DNA of 64,000 nt from an uncultured Prevotellaceae bacterium (lineage in GTDB: Bacteria > Bacteroidota > Bacteroidia > Bacteroidales > Muribaculaceae): contig ONKD01000008.1 of assembly GCA_900318345.1 (NCBI GenBank), positions 62,001 to 126,000 of the forward strand, given 5' to 3'. A program made the translations under genes and the position numbers. Shown piece after piece: positions 4,769 to 59,220 of this stretch (positions are counted from its first letter, which is position 1; each line of letters opens with the position of its first letter). The notes beneath the pieces were generated by a model. That model was not told the DNA's origin. It did no database searches and worked only from the letters and a program-made list of their open reading frames with translations.

Positions 4769-7303
4769 TTATTGGCCCTGATCGATGGTCTTGCTTGCTT
4801 TCTTGAAGAACTTGTCGCCAAACAGGGCGTAGTTCAACGCCAGCAGCAGCAACAGGTAGATGATAACCACGGCGATGGTGGCACAGGTCTGGGTCTTGTT
4901 GACCTCGTCGGGAGCATACTTGAAGTCAATCTCATGGTCTCCGGCGGGCAGTTGCAGGGCGCGAAGCACATAGTTCACGCGGCCCATCTCGACGGGCTTG
5001 CCATCGACGGTGACCTTCCATCCCCAGGGGAAATACACCTCGCTGAAGACGGACAGGCCGCCATTGGCGCTATGGCTCTTGTATGTCAGATGGTTGGGGG
5101 CGTAGCTGGTCTCGTATATGGTGTCGCCGGGCTGTGTGGCCTTAGCGTCGCCCAGTTGCTGCTTGAACTTGGCATCGGCCACGGCAGTGGTGGCGGGATT
5201 GAAGTCGTTCAGGAACGCCATCTCCTGGTCGGCGTTGTCGACATAGGTGAGCGTGTCAACAAACCAGGCATTGCCCAGAGCGTCAGGGTTGCGCTGCACC
5301 GATTGGTCATCGACGATGACATAGCGGGTGTTGAGCATGTTGAGCACCTGGATGTTGTTCTTGGCAATCTGGTTGTTGATCAGGTCGTTGTAGCGCGACA
5401 GCTTGGCGGCATGGTATCCGCCCACGGTCTTGTGGAAATAACTGGGCATGGCCTCGCCAAAGTGCTGCACATCCATCACGCGGTAATTCATGTCCTTGTC
5501 CTGCAGGATTTGGGTATCGGCGGGACGCGGGGAGAAGTTCTGCTCGGGCAGGTCATAGTGTGACGTGAAGGAGTCGCTGTCGATGTAGCGCTTGTTGACG
5601 GTGTACATGTCCACCAGTACGATGCCGGCGAGGATGAGTACGGTGGCCAGCTCGTTAAGTTTACCCTTGAGGTAAACGAAGATCACGCCGAAGCCGAGCA
5701 AGAGCACGATCAGGCTGCGCCAAGCGTCACCACTTACCAGCCAGCCACGTACGGCGGCGATGGCGGCATCCACATTGGGATACTGCTGGATTTGACCAGT
5801 AGCGACCAGCTGCTCATGCTCCATGGCTGAGAAGTGGCCGAAGATGTTGGGCACGAGGGCCGTAATCAGGCACATCAGCGCACACGCGCCAAACGACACG
5901 ATCAGCGCCACCTTGTGCTTGCGCCAGCCGTCGGGCTCTTTGAGCAACTCGCGTAGGCCCAGCACCGCCAGGATGGGCATGGCAATCTCGGCGATGACGA
6001 GGATGGATGCTACCGTGCGGAACTTGTTGTACATGGGGAAGTGGTCAATCATCCAGTCGGTGAGCCACATCATGTTGTGACCCCACGAGAGCAGGATGCT
6101 GATGATGGTGACGATGAGCAGCGCCCACTTCACCGGCCCCTTGACGATGAGGCAGCCCAGCAGGAACAGGGCACAGATGAGTGCGCCCACATAGACGGGG
6201 CCGTTGGTCATGGGCTGATCGCCGAAGTATTGCGGGAACTGACTCAGGATCTGGTACTCCTGCTGGCTCATCTTGCCGGTGTTGGCCATTTTCAGAGCCT
6301 TGTCGGTATCGCTCAGCGAGAGCATCGTGTTGTCGCCGTGCTCGGGCTTGATGGTAGCGCCACCCTTCACGTTGGGGATGAGCAGGGTGAACGTCTCGCC
6401 CTTGCCATAGCTCCACTGGGTGATATAGTCCTTGTCCAGGCCACCCTTGGTGGGCTTGGCGTTGGCTGCCTCTTCGCCCGTGGGCGTGAGCTCGCTGTGG
6501 CCGCCACGAATGGTCTCCTGGGTGTATTTATAGGTCAGGAACAGGTTGGGCGAGTTGGCTGCAAGCGCGAGCAGCGCTGCCACGGCCAGGCATGCGGTGG
6601 CGATGCACCAGCGGCCCACCTGCTTCTCGATGATGGCCTTGACCAGATAGGCGATGACCAGTGCCACGATGATGAACATCGAGTAATAGGTCATCTGCAC
6701 GTGGTTGCTGGCCAGCTGCAAGGCGGCAAAGAACGCTGCCACGGCCATACCGCCCAGGTACTTGCCACGGTAGCACCACACGATGCCGGCAAGGGTGGGG
6801 GGAATGTAGGCGAGCACCATGAGCTTCCAGATGTGGCCAGCGCCCATGAGAATGAAAAAGTAGCTCGAGAACGCGTAGCCGATAGCGCCCAGCACGGCAT
6901 AGTACCACTTGACCTTAAAGGATAGCATGAGCAGGAAGAAGCCCAGCATGAGGACGAAAATCCAGCTCACAGGCGTCGGGAAATAAAGGCGGTAGAGCGC
7001 CGAGGCAGGCGTGAGCATCGTCGTGCCCTTGTAGGACGGGGCGATTTGGAACGTGGGCATGCCGCCAAACAGGGCGTCGGTCCACAGTGGCTTCTCGCCG
7101 GTCTGAGCTTCATAGGTGTTGATCTCCTGACTGTTGGCGATACCCTGCATGATGTCGTTCTGCTGCAGCACGTCGCCGTTCATGTCATTGGGATAGAAAT
7201 AAATCCACGAGATGGCAGCAAATACCAGCACTGCAATCGCGAAGTGGATCACGTCGGCCAGCGACAGCGACCCGATCAGTTTCTTCTCTAATTTACTTTT
7301 CAT
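4769..7303 (-). CDS. YfhO family integral membrane protein
   Basis: An 844-residue polytopic membrane protein. The N-terminus has a membrane segment (VIHFAIAVLVFAAISWIYFY) followed by an extracytoplasmic loop. About ten more hydrophobic segments run to residue 600, then comes a soluble region of about 200 residues (FPWGWKVTVDGKPVEMG) and a last membrane helix (IAVVIIYLLLLLALNYALF). This order is typical of the YfhO family, thought to act in glycosyl transfer onto cell-wall or surface polymers; in Bacteroidetes the substrate is unknown. The promoter box at 7342 suggests it heads a two-gene unit with the methyltransferase-like gene. Confidence 0.85.
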   Translation of the reverse strand: MKSKLEKKLIGSLSLADVIHFAIAVLVFAAISWIYFYPNDMNGDVLQQNDIMQGIANSQEINTYEAQTGEKPLWTDALFGGMPTFQIAPSYKGTTMLTPASALYRLYFPTPVSWIFVLMLGFFLLMLSFKVKWYYAVLGAIGYAFSSYFFILMGAGHIWKLMVLAYIPPTLAGIVWCYRGKYLGGMAVAAFFAALQLASNHVQMTYYSMFIIVALVIAYLVKAIIEKQVGRWCIATACLAVAALLALAANSPNLFLTYKYTQETIRGGHSELTPTGEEAANAKPTKGGLDKDYITQWSYGKGETFTLLIPNVKGGATIKPEHGDNTMLSLSDTDKALKMANTGKMSQQEYQILSQFPQYFGDQPMTNGPVYVGALICALFLLGCLIVKGPVKWALLIVTIISILLSWGHNMMWLTDWMIDHFPMYNKFRTVASILVIAEIAMPILAVLGLRELLKEPDGWRKHKVALIVSFGACALMCLITALVPNIFGHFSAMEHEQLVATGQIQQYPNVDAAIAAVRGWLVSGDAWRSLIVLLLGFGVIFVYLKGKLNELATVLILAGIVLVDMYTVNKRYIDSDSFTSHYDLPEQNFSPRPADTQILQDKDMNYRVMDVQHFGEAMPSYFHKTVGGYHAAKLSRYNDLINNQIAKNNIQVLNMLNTRYVIVDDQSVQRNPDALGNAWFVDTLTYVDNADQEMAFLNDFNPATTAVADAKFKQQLGDAKATQPGDTIYETSYAPNHLTYKSHSANGGLSVFSEVYFPWGWKVTVDGKPVEMGRVNYVLRALQLPAGDHEIDFKYAPDEVNKTQTCATIAVVIIYLLLLLALNYALFGDKFFKKASKTIDQGQ

Positions 7304-7341
7304 TATCTAGTAGTTAATTGGTTTTCGGTTGTTACAACCTG

Positions 7342-7349
7342 CAAAGGTA
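7342..7349 (-). promoter_or_regulatory. -7 promoter box of the yfhO-family gene
   Basis: CAAAGGTA on the plus strand is TACCTTTG on the minus strand, 38 bases before the start codon. A second identical box lies at 7418-7425 and could be an upstream promoter. Confidence 0.55.
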
Positions 7350-7466
7350 GTGAAAGCCGAGCGGAAATCAAAATAAATTATGATTTTCCCAAGACGCAGC
7401 CTACTTTCGCCGCAAGGCAAAGGTAATATTTTTTTAGGTAATAGAAAAAACTACTTGGCTTTAGCC

Positions 7467-12079: not shown

Positions 12080-12147
12080 GTTTTTAGTCGCTAGTCGGGA
12101 TTCAGTGAAAAACAATAATAATTCTTGTTTTTTCTCTCGGCTTGCAC

Positions 12148-12155
12148 TATCTTTG
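12148..12155 (+). promoter_or_regulatory. Promoter of kbl
   Basis: TATCTTTG, with TTG at 12125-12127 about 20 bases upstream. The start codon of kbl follows 54 bases after the box. Confidence 0.65.
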
Positions 12156-12209
12156 CAGGCAATATAGAATATACTATTAATGTCAAACCTTTTAATATAG
12201 TTTTTTATC

Positions 12210-41765: not shown

Positions 41766-41849
41766 GAGGCTGTAGCAAAACAGTCGATTAAAACATTGAT
41801 CGAGCTTCGCTCGAGAAATGTAGCGACATTGCAATTATGACATAGCCTC
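41766..41849 (-). repeat. Dispersed intergenic element, copy B
   Basis: On the minus strand it reads GAGGCTATGTCATAATTGCA, then ATGTCGC, a TCGAGC-gaa-GCTCGA hairpin (41800-41814) and ATCAATGTTTT. The ends GAGGCT (41766) and AGCCTC (41849) are inverted. Modules match copies A, C and D. It lies between convergent genes, 4 bases from the CotH stop. Confidence 0.75.
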
Positions 41850-46960: not shown

Positions 46961-47190
46961 GAGGGTGTGCCATAATTCAACGTCGCAATGTTTAACCGTG
47001 CTACGCACGGGAAATTTAAACAAATTACTTAAATAATTAATACAAAATTTGTTTTAATTTAGATAAGATTGGCTGCGTCTCAGCAAATCAAGCAAGCTTG
47101 TTTGCCTTTGACTTGCACAATCTTTCTCGGCCGTATCACCGAGTGTCTCAATGCGAACAATAAGAGCCGCAAAATTTTGCGGCTCTACTA
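46961..47190 (+). repeat. Dispersed intergenic element, copy A (fullest copy)
   Basis: A left arm GTGTGCCATAATTCAACGTC is followed 25 bases from CATAATT by a hairpin CCGTGC-tac-GCACGG (46996-47010). Then come an AT-rich core with TTAATACAAAATTTG, a hairpin with one bulged T (47083-47105), TTGCACAA, a right-arm hairpin CTCGG/CCGAG (47126-47143), and a 24-base perfect palindrome (47163-47186) with centre CGCAAAATTTTGCG. It fills the spacer between the convergent GT2 and beta-helix genes. Confidence 0.8.
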
Positions 47191-57239: not shown

Positions 57240-57372
57240 GTGGCTGTGTCATAATTCATCCGCAGGAATATAAACCGCCCTGCGGGCGGGAAATTATAAC
57301 AAATTGTATATTTCGAGTGAAGCTCGATTAATGTTTCCAGACTGTAGAGACGCAAAATTTTGCGTCTCTACA
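57240..57372 (+). repeat. Dispersed intergenic element, copy C
   Basis: The left arm TGGCTGTGTCATAATTCATC is followed, 25 bases from CATAATT, by the hairpin CCGCCC-tgc-GGGCGG (57275-57289), then GGAAATTATAACAAATTG, a CGAG-tgaa-GCTCG hairpin module shared with copy B and ATTAATGTTT. The element ends in a perfect 30-base palindrome (57343-57372), whose half is TGTAGAGACGCAAAA. Confidence 0.8.
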
Positions 57373-57860: not shown

Positions 57861-58319
57861 ATGAAGAAATTCATTCTCAGTTTAACCCTTGTGTTTGCCT
57901 CATTGGCGGCATGGGCTGAGGCGGGTTTCTACGTTGAGGACAGTCAAGGCGTTCTTGTCGGATACGTTTTCATGGACCAGCCCGTCTGGACGTTTGAAGG
58001 CGACAACCTTGTGATCTCAACAGTAGGAGGTACAGTCCAATACCCCATGTCTGATGTGGCTAAAGTCTTCTTTGGAGATGTCACTCCAACCGGGCTCCTG
58101 GAGCTCGATGTTGACGAGATGATCCGTGTTATCCCCGATGGCGTCGAGTTGACCGGCTTTGCCGCCAACACGGTGGTCACCATCCACAACCTGCAAGGTC
58201 AACAGCTGGGCGCCTACCGCACCAGCCAGTCAGGTTCACTCACAATCAGTCTTGCCGATCGCGAGCAGGGCATCTACCTTATCCACGCAAACAAATCAAC
58301 CATTAAAATCAAGAAATGA
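57861..58319 (+). CDS. Small secreted protein with T9SS type A sorting domain
   Basis: A 152-residue protein. The signal peptide is MKKFILSLTLVFASLAAWA. Residues about 20-75 are a small beta-rich region (LVGYVFMDQPVWTFEGDNL). From about 85 to the end it is a type IX secretion C-terminal sorting domain (VVTIHNLQGQQLGAYRTSQS, then GIYLIHANKSTIKIKK). The cargo part is unusually small, and much of the protein is the sorting signal. It is followed by another secreted protein whose start overlaps or abuts its stop. T9SS genes lie 3 kb away. Function unknown. Confidence 0.7.
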   Translation: MKKFILSLTLVFASLAAWAEAGFYVEDSQGVLVGYVFMDQPVWTFEGDNLVISTVGGTVQYPMSDVAKVFFGDVTPTGLLELDVDEMIRVIPDGVELTGFAANTVVTIHNLQGQQLGAYRTSQSGSLTISLADREQGIYLIHANKSTIKIKK

Positions 58320-58321
58320 CA

Positions 58322-58852
58322 ATGAAAAAAATTATAAGTGTATTGGCTATGGCATTGCTCGTCATCGGAGCAGCACAAGCCCAGGAACAAGTGAGAAAAA
58401 TGTTCATTCACATGAATGATGGCCAAATTGTGAAAATCAAGGCCGCAAACATTCAGGAAGTAACTTTCGAGATGGATGTTGATCTTCCGGATGTCCCAAC
58501 CACCATAGATGAGGCAAAAGCCATGCTGGTCGGCTATTGGAGTGTGCTATTCCCATTCGATGATGATGAAATTGAAGGTGCTTATTTTATTATCACAGAG
58601 GATCTTAAGGTTTTAGAGTGTTACAAATTCAATGATTCTTTCCCTGATGAAGAATACGCCGGAAAGTATATAGCGAGTGATATTGGTGAGATAACTTTCC
58701 CGAATGAAGAAGATCCTACAACGTTCTATTTAGGAGAAGAATATGAAGGAACAAACTTGCATCTGAATAGTTTTTATTTCGATTCATATCCCTGTATTCG
58801 TGTTGAGCCGTTTGAGTACATTCTATTAGATTTTGGTCTAATGAAAAAATAG
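58322..58852 (+). CDS. Hypothetical secreted protein
   Basis: A 176-residue protein with a signal peptide (MKKIISVLAMALLVIGAAQA). The start at 58322, just after the upstream stop, is preferred over an ATG six bases earlier that would overlap it. After the signal, residues 21-50 resemble the usual start of T9SS cargo (VRKMFIHMNDGQIVKIKAAN). From about 62 it becomes an acidic beta-rich domain (LVGYWSVLFPFDDDEIEGAY), vaguely lipocalin-like. No sorting domain is visible at its end. The second half is richer in A+T than neighbouring genes. I do not recognise a family. Confidence 0.6.
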   Translation: MKKIISVLAMALLVIGAAQAQEQVRKMFIHMNDGQIVKIKAANIQEVTFEMDVDLPDVPTTIDEAKAMLVGYWSVLFPFDDDEIEGAYFIITEDLKVLECYKFNDSFPDEEYAGKYIASDIGEITFPNEEDPTTFYLGEEYEGTNLHLNSFYFDSYPCIRVEPFEYILLDFGLMKK

Positions 58853-58878: not shown

Positions 58879-58926
58879 ACTCCATGGTTTTGCGGATCGA
58901 CTTGCCGCACAACCATGGAGTTTTTC
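58879..58926 (+). terminator. Rho-independent terminator after 58852
   Basis: ACTCCATGGTT (58879-58889) pairs with AACCATGGAGT (58911-58921), extended by TGCGG/CCGCA. TTTTT CTTT follows. Confidence 0.92.
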
Positions 58927-58989: not shown

Positions 58990-59220
58990 CTAAAAAGGTC
59001 GAAGATCTTGACAAGGCCAGCGGCCTTGTGCAGGCCTAAGGCCTGCATTTTTCCACGGACAAGCTAATTTAAAATTTTAATACAAAATTTGTTTAAATTT
59101 CCCGAAACTTGGTGGCACCTCAGCCATTGAAGTAAACTTCATGGCCTTCGGTTTGCACAAGTTTTCCCGTGCGTAAGCATGGTTTATTTCTGCGACATTG
59201 CATTTTGACACAGGCTCCCG
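58990..59220. repeat. Dispersed intergenic element, copy D
   Basis: The left part holds two abutting palindromes (ACAAGGCC-agc-GGCCTTGT, 59011-59029; TGCAGGCC-taa-GGCCTGCA, 59029-59047). The core TTAATACAAAATTTG and a bulged-T hairpin (59123-59145) align with copy A in the same direction, ending in TTGCACAA. The right arm is inverted: hairpin CCGTGC-gtaa-GCATGG (59167-59182), then the reverse complement of GCCTGTGTCAAAATGCAATG. It fills most of the 511-base gene-free stretch 58853-59363. Confidence 0.75.

Follow-up and report, generated by a model that had tools for sequence, protein, structure and literature searches.

Intergenic repeats of an uncultured Bacteroidales bacterium as probable nested mobile elements: a MITE with IS1182-family ends and a hairpin with a putative promoter of its own

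BIMEs are mosaic in build, the hairpins of IS608 carry an extrahelical T, and putative mobile promoters are promoters that have been copied to unrelated genes. Four further systems come close to the repeats analysed here. REPs measure 20-40 bp; those tagged with CGTC have stems of 8-9 bp and loops of 4-5 nt, and in the accessible text they are placed in Bacteroidetes with no linked transposase (PMC3733652). IS608 has a hairpin whose 5' foot bears a guide; the guide pairs with the tetranucleotide TTAC, and insertion takes place 3' of it (PMC5934647). IS1272, a member of the IS1182 family, replaces an inverted-repeat (stem-loop) target and is reported to leave no duplication (PMC5678879). The sigma-ABfr promoter consensus has TTTG near -33 and TAnnTTTG near -7 (PMC7366714).

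In the window (the whole stretch of 64,000 nucleotides that was analysed), four intergenic repeats, A to D, are degraded members of a small family of transposons, a MITE, and A and D also carry a second repeat, the core hairpin. The first-pass annotation had taken all four for one family. The hairpins and motifs it named were found in place when the sequence was re-read, but reading of 60 loci revealed A and D as composite, each holding two different repeats, and thus two nested families instead of one. We consider it probable that both are mobile, the outer one being a MITE moved by a transposase of the IS1182 family and the inner one a promoter hairpin with its own promoter. The bit scores below refer to R1, the model of the MITE arm, or R2, the model of the core hairpin; both match their own training rows by construction.

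46961-47026, plus strand: left MITE arm of copy A, with end repeat, word CAACGTCGCAATGTTTAA, hairpin CCGTGC/GCACGG at 46996-47010, and GAAATTTAAACAAATT (R1, 80 bits; read by eye)
47062-47127, plus strand: core hairpin inserted in copy A, promoter boxes lost, bulged T, AA loop (R2, 78.9 bits)
41766-41849, plus strand: copy B, a short MITE, with left end GAGGCTGTAGCAAAAC, hairpin TCGAGC/GCTCGA at 41800-41814, right end at 41833-41849, centre missing
57240-57305, plus strand: left MITE arm of copy C, with word CATCCGCAGGAATATAAA and hairpin CCGCCC/GGGCGG at 57275-57289 (R1, 79.4 bits)
57311-57339, minus strand: what remains in copy C of a right arm of the TCGAGC type, its end repeat lacking (by eye)
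59102-59167, plus strand: core hairpin inserted in copy D, promoter boxes lost, bulged T, AA loop (R2, 78.0 bits)
59159-59217, minus strand: right MITE arm of copy D, with hairpin CCGTGC/GCATGG including one G-T pair (R1, 33.1 bits)

CATAATT lies at 46971 in A and at 57250 in C, each with its hairpin 25 nt further on (46996 and 57275), as described before; the arm of D is inverted as claimed but reads TCAAAATG in place of CATAATT. B is nearly without a centre. With R1, copy B scores 43.7 bits on the plus and 23.0 bits on the minus strand, its ends being inverted. No right-hand arm of A or C was found at a convincing R1 score, and no left arm of D; the right remnant of C scores just 14.9 bits (E 0.85, 57301-57359). 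The arms outside the training set of R1 gave E values of 1.6e-6 (B) and 2e-4 (D), those inside it 8.6e-14 (A) and 1.1e-13 (C), and R2 gave 3.3e-25 and 6.7e-25 for the cores of A and D, both of which are in its training set. Between the cores of A (47083-47105) and D (59123-59145) four pairs have changed with compensation, and the single unpaired T is retained; the four changes separate two subtypes of the core and do not represent successive steps at a single site. The position of the core within copy A is matched by the same core in three other MITE loci (L002, L003 and L004).

Taken by themselves, the signals within the window are modest; strong evidence comes from the family, in the genome-wide matches of the pattern GGCTNTGTCANAAT (below) and in the R1 and R2 scores given above. 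The terminal motif has 8 matches with up to 3 mismatches against 2.9 expected, a number reached by 3 of 100 shuffles, and the cores of A and D, folded as single strands, do only modestly better than shuffles (z -2.1 and -1.8). With copy A as BLAST query (E up to 10), the own genome gave 69 matches, among them several pieces of one place and matches to the small palindrome at the right edge of A. The window holds nothing at the Rfam gathering score, and the view of the repeats as dispersed, mobile and structured stands; in three loci searched up to E 1, Rfam gave only chance-like matches off the elements. A literature search, with most subscription journals outside its reach, turned up no recognised description of the MITE or of the core family, which is weak evidence.

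Perfect palindromes, AGAGCCGCAAAATTTTGCGGCTCT at 47163-47186 and TGTAGAGACGCAAAATTTTGCGTCTCTACA at 57343-57372, adjoin copies A and C. Similar GAGACGCAAAATTTTGCGTCTC hairpins, with T runs after them, stand before argS in L516, L521 and L523, so palindromes of this type seem to be terminators that recur or else a further repeat. A 17-bp inverted repeat with a T run at 58879-58921, at the end of the ORF 58316-58852, is likely a terminator.

The MITE arms follow a common plan: a constant end, GAGGSTGTGTCATAATT or less often GAGGNTGTTGCAAAAC, a word of 17-19 nt, a hairpin with a 6-bp stem and a 3-4-nt loop, and usually GAAATTNANACAAATT (85 arms). The pattern GGCTNTGTCANAAT matches the genome 43 times, its reversal not at all. 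Further copies, which the first-pass annotation had proposed to look for, were found in this genome with both models, and in related ones; for the arms, R1 found at least 150 in the own genome, in 98 clusters. They include 49 complete pairs, i.e. MITEs of 124-247 bp, non-coding, short and multicopy. Word and hairpin of an arm are linked, and seven word types were used for classing the arms. The linked set must be larger than these seven, since loci of sister species (L123, L129, L212 and L112) show arm words and hairpins that are absent from the own genome. We propose that the MITE is a mosaic in which blocks of word plus hairpin are reshuffled among copies.

Pairing of the stems persists in larger alignments, for the arms as well as for the cores. 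Among 46 aligned arms, the covariation score was 0.604 versus 0.169 for shuffled alignments; both partners have changed in three of the six pairs, and one pair occurs in all four Watson-Crick combinations. That pairing amounts to 100% is partly circular, as the aligned arms had been picked for six pairs, and neither the number of pairs altered on both sides nor that of additional pair types showed an excess over shuffles. Most MITEs (41 of 49) are best fitted by one left-type and one right-type half, 8 by two right-type halves; 13 are ambiguous. A rule of heterotypic arms was considered, as the same word occurs at both ends in none of the 49 versus 10.4 expected at random. It is not claimed here: separate left and right word pools predict just 2.1 same-word pairs in 41, and the scarcity of such pairs is largely due to the left-type and right-type halves.

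What moves the MITE is suggested by its ends. The MITE end occurs in 40 of 61 genomes of the genus, the own one included, against 1 match for the reversed control. At five contig ends of the own genome, as at others in G002 and G003, the contig breaks off within a different sequence headed by the MITE end, as expected of an unassembled IS. In two full-length elements of sister species the MITE end, with 1-2 mismatches, stands on both sides of an element of the IS1182 family: in L153 (1306 and 3178) the transposase frame is open, and in L201 (821 and 2682) the element is interrupted and matches Pfam DDE_Tnp_1_6 and DUF772. The NCBIfam IS1182 model matched 15 of the 61 genomes, 2 of them above the cut-off; the own genome gave no match to it, and IS ends were seen there at contig ends only. 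One MITE of the own genome (C21:6056-6221) is missing at the corresponding position of L226 and L357, apart from an unexplained difference of about 10 bp at the junction. Neither a target duplication nor a palindromic flank was found for 43 of the 49 MITEs (4 were skipped for weak ends and 2 for a missing flank). Judged by common ends, size and one insertion polymorphism, the MITE appears to be a non-autonomous element of the IS1182 family, and its transposase would be of the IS1182 type, acting in trans and recognising the 17-bp ends. The IS200/IS605 origin suggested earlier does not hold for the arms, whose ends are those of a DDE family.

Solitary inverted repeats of the IS1182 end (GAGGGTGTGTCATAATT...CACCCTC) with no adjoining transposon were seen in L142, L114, L117 and L133; they could be targets, excision scars or terminators. 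L113 and L124 hold short elements with the same IS1182-type ends and unrelated interiors, that of L124 including a core-like hairpin.

The core hairpin is a separate family, about 70 nt long (66-84), which is also found alone without a MITE. It consists of a 7-bp outer stem, the loop GGCTGCGTCTC, an inner stem, an unpaired T, a second stem, the AA loop, the return strands and the loop CTCGACTTGCA; its foot carries no GTAG tag, and the two loops named are the conserved ones. In an alignment of 16 rows, changes on both sides were seen for 11 of the 16 pairs. In alignment A3, which has 63 distinct rows, was fitted to R2 and draws mostly on the best-scoring locus of each genome, the covariation score was 0.456, compared with 0.144 for shuffled and at most 0.126 for slid rows. 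The cells of its pairs are Watson-Crick in 938 cases, G-T in 10 (about 1%) and broken in 44. This rarity of G-T favours pairing of DNA over pairing of RNA. The T bulge is present in at least 41 of the 63 rows (GCTC 19, ACTC 11, TG 5, TC 3, AACTA 3), the AA loop in 52.

In many free copies the 3' strand of the core reads as the promoter of Bacteroidota, TTTG-N19/20-TAnnTTTG. The -7 box, with its two free bases, finds its complement in the 5' foot, CGAANNTAG. All 37 A3 rows with TAnnTTTG have TTTG upstream, at 20 nt in 31 rows and at 19 nt in 6. For an independent test of the pairing with the free bases, copies in named public genomes were collected by a pattern that covers the core from its second stem up to the 3' end, with no constraint on the outer 5' strand or on either of the free -7 bases. 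The test used 117 of the 121 matches listed, 4 matches near a locus edge having been dropped. In 88 of the 117 copies the 5' strand exactly complements the two free bases, compared with a mean of 25.5 and a maximum of 39 in shuffles, a contrast that is overstated because of kinship among the copies, and with 0 to 20 at slid positions; in 29 copies the free bases are not both complemented.

Many free core copies lie closely upstream of genes. As stated earlier, three of the four copies A to D in the window lie between convergent ORFs. Two more members of the core family in the window had been overlooked, and both precede genes:

7341-7410, minus strand: free promoter hairpin, intact-looking, start codon of the gene at 7303 (R2, 66.5 bits; a training row)
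4769-7303, minus strand: gene of a YfhO-like membrane protein downstream of this hairpin (Pfam YfhO, 28.9 bits, cut-off 28.5)
12085-12156, plus strand: degenerate promoter hairpin, 3' half kept with TATCTTTG (R2, 23.9 bits, E 1.6e-5)

The former has a new -7 box, TACCTTTG, at 7342-7349 and an old one 76 nt further upstream, at 7418-7425; the latter lies 53 nt before the ATG (12210) of a gene for a protein of the aminotransferase fold. Throughout the own genome, 48 copies lie away from a MITE. TAnnTTTG is present in 29 of them and absent in 19, and an ORF (at least 100 codons, start within 150 nt) begins downstream of 36, versus 12 on the other side. Among the 23 copies adjoining a MITE, only 2 have TAnnTTTG, with an ORF downstream of 3 and on the other side of 2; the simple free/MITE rule misplaces at least 2 of these 23 and 1 of the 48. 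Named loci show the same preference (77 of 101 downstream, 22 of 101 on the other side), and the genes downstream include argS, panC, those of enolase and arginine deiminase, and the YfhO-like gene. The core copies inside MITEs have lost the promoter and are probably passengers. The free hairpin, as its sequence suggests, probably acts as a promoter in the cell.

For two genes, the YfhO-like gene and argS, the upstream regions were compared in 30 loci each, from 60 genomes with a match. R2 matched upstream of the YfhO-like gene at 6 of 30 loci (partially in L482) and upstream of argS at 7 of 30 (partially in L518). At five of the six filled sites of the YfhO-like gene (L471, L477, L481, L484 and L491) a second TACCTTTG occurs exactly 76 nt upstream; at filled argS sites it occurs at 80 nt (L507, L517 and L523) or 84 nt (L505). 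The -7 box is thus doubled at 9 of 13 filled sites, and the unit, 76-84 nt long, lies 3' of a -7 box. The other four have no intact second TAnnTTTG: L482, which is partial; L518, with TACCGTTG at 76 nt; and L501, the argS locus of the own genome, and L502 of its sister G058, both without an intact left TAnnTTTG. Empty orthologues have TAnnTTTG within 95 nt of the ATG in 18 of 23 and 16 of 23 cases (one start was not found); one of the 16, L511, is a filled site that has decayed. Counted back from the ATG, the last -7 box is 34-41 and 29-53 nt away in filled sites, close to or within the range of empty ones (36-48 and 28-52 nt, L511 aside). Comparison of filled with empty promoters thus places the start of the unit right after an old -7 box and a new box at its end. 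Empty sites in relatives, whose inspection had been suggested before, thus exist for the hairpin at two genes as well as for the MITE, and one MITE occurs in two species without (L108) and with (L011) a core of 66 nt.

A -7-like motif on the left was present at 54 of the 117 named copies, versus 100 of 2280 control windows, and absent in 63; the left and right free bases are equal in 27 of the 54 (11.6 expected, maximum 22). In G033 the left box has TACC and that of the element TATC. Head-to-tail copies occur in 13 of 38 stretches listed. In several arrays (L224, L237, L239, L244 and L246) the inner -7 box has GTTG instead of TTTG, as if the old promoter had been switched off. By these sequence comparisons the hairpin appears to be mobile, to land on promoters and to be able to regenerate them.

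R2 matches number 71 in the own genome (E up to 0.01) and occur in 56 of 61 genomes of the genus, the own one included. Outside the genus, 1 of 147 genomes across the phylum matched, weakly (at E up to 0.001 and with a smaller number of candidates scored in each genome); the genomes listed of those 147 are no closer than the same class. Among the public matches listed, which include Prevotella, Muribaculaceae, Rikenellaceae and Paludibacteraceae, the 80 records examined, of at least 117, all belong to Bacteroidales or to a family or genus of Bacteroidales. Matches to the promoter hairpin were also seen in the unannotated faecal virome records MT838739, MT835691, MT837172 and MT839441 and in the Phocaeicola plasmid record OY725997; carriage by phages or plasmids is a possible route of its transfer.

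A mechanism can be proposed that goes beyond what was observed, namely the structure and its covariation, filled as well as empty sites, the doubling of the -7 box and the association with gene starts. Sitting immediately 3' of a -7 box (TAnnTTTGC), with promoters as its normal home, the hairpin would move as folded single-stranded DNA. Its 5' foot would be a guide that pairs with the left -7 box, the target, and with the right one, its own, in the manner of IS200/IS605 guides, and a Y1-type transposase would act on it in trans. The 3' end supplies the -33 TTTG, a spacer of 19-20 nt and a new -7 box, so that the downstream gene could be transcribed from the element. Head-to-tail arrays would follow from the fresh target at the end of every copy. 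A single hairpin with a box of about 8 nt would account for the place of insertion and the doubling of the box as well as for the covariation and the arrays. Our tentative proposal, possible rather than probable, is a promoter-homing transposable element made of a single hairpin: a DNA guide pairs with a host -7 box, the element inserts 3' of it and brings the same box at its right end, each insertion being a new promoter and the next target, with guide and target co-diversified across the genus (TAtc, TAcc, TAac, TAat). For the core, IS200/IS605 is thus kept as a possible mechanism only. Y1 genes are present in 55 of 61 genomes, yet no link of the hairpin to a Y1/RAYT transposase was found: 46 of 50 Y1 loci lacked an R2 match (matches in 3 of 30 and 1 of 20). 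A weak R2 match near tnpA of the own genome (L274, 16.6 bits) looked unrelated on reading.

The main rival to this proposal does without a transposase: the hairpin would spread by recombination or copying between promoters, and the covariation would come from template switching between the arms, i.e. quasi-palindrome correction. Besides the missing transposase link at the Y1 loci, it would accommodate the few G-T intermediates and the linker between the left box and the 5' foot, which is palindromic yet variable in sequence. We nevertheless find it less likely than not, since correction of the arms alone would lose the internal loops, which are unpaired and conserved in the 63 rows, and since units of 76 nt have defined ends.

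Strong pairing, conserved unpaired loops and a fixed position relative to the gene start would also suit a regulatory structure, e.g. a cruciform or a sensor of supercoiling, that is inherited with its gene and whose absence means loss, and the argS copy common to the own genome and G058 could be such a case. The occurrence on unrelated genes, the arrays, the doubling of the -7 box at filled sites and the insertion of the hairpin in a MITE with no gene after it make this improbable. Very improbable is a single REP/BIME-like family that acts as RNA at gene ends, as terminator or mRNA stabiliser. Such a role would fit the three window copies between convergent ORFs, and the mosaic build recalls BIMEs; however, the families are separable, G-T pairs make up only about 1%, free cores lie at gene starts, and Rfam gave no match.

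If the promoter-homing hairpin is real, the promoters of housekeeping genes in a dominant lineage of rumen and gut are rewritten by a mobile hairpin that keeps them working, and promoter turnover in Bacteroidota becomes directly testable. It would provide an example from nature of insertion guided by DNA to a target of more than four bases, and would call for caution in the annotation of promoters and start sites. The MITE, with its 98 arm clusters in one genome, is a good subject for studying the origin of mosaic transposon ends.

Set against the known systems, as far as the consulted parts of their descriptions go, the MITE resembles IS1272, which has a DDE transposase, in its terminal inverted repeats of about 16-17 bp, and the lack of a target duplication in IS1272 agrees with our 43 MITEs (PMC5678879). 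IS1272 replaces a stem-loop target (PMC5678879), and the MITE might do the same; the 43 MITEs have no palindromic flank, and the single empty site agrees with either case. Unlike IS1272, the MITE has no gene, and its words and hairpins do not resemble the interior of an IS. The core is a dispersed palindrome with CGTC 5' of its inner stem, like the GTAG/CGTC REPs and BIMEs, but differs from REPs in its length of about 70 nt, two internal loops, bulged T, AA loop and promoter (PMC3733652); the earlier comparison with REP/BIME is thus apt for the form of the core and falls short where the transposase is concerned, with an R2 match in only 4 of 50 Y1 loci. With IS608 it has in common a 5' foot complementary to the preceding target and insertion 3' of that target; it departs from IS200/IS605 in being a single hairpin with no gene, a longer target and the same box at both ends (PMC5934647). 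It matches the Bacteroides sigma-ABfr promoter in the TTTG at -33 and the TAnnTTTG at -7; the accessible part of that source sets a near-palindromic motif, PM2, at -10/-30 and describes no hairpin of 70 nt (PMC7366714). Finally, the hairpin resembles the putative mobile promoters in its occurrence on unrelated genes, and stands apart from them as a structured unit of defined extent whose insertion point is fixed.
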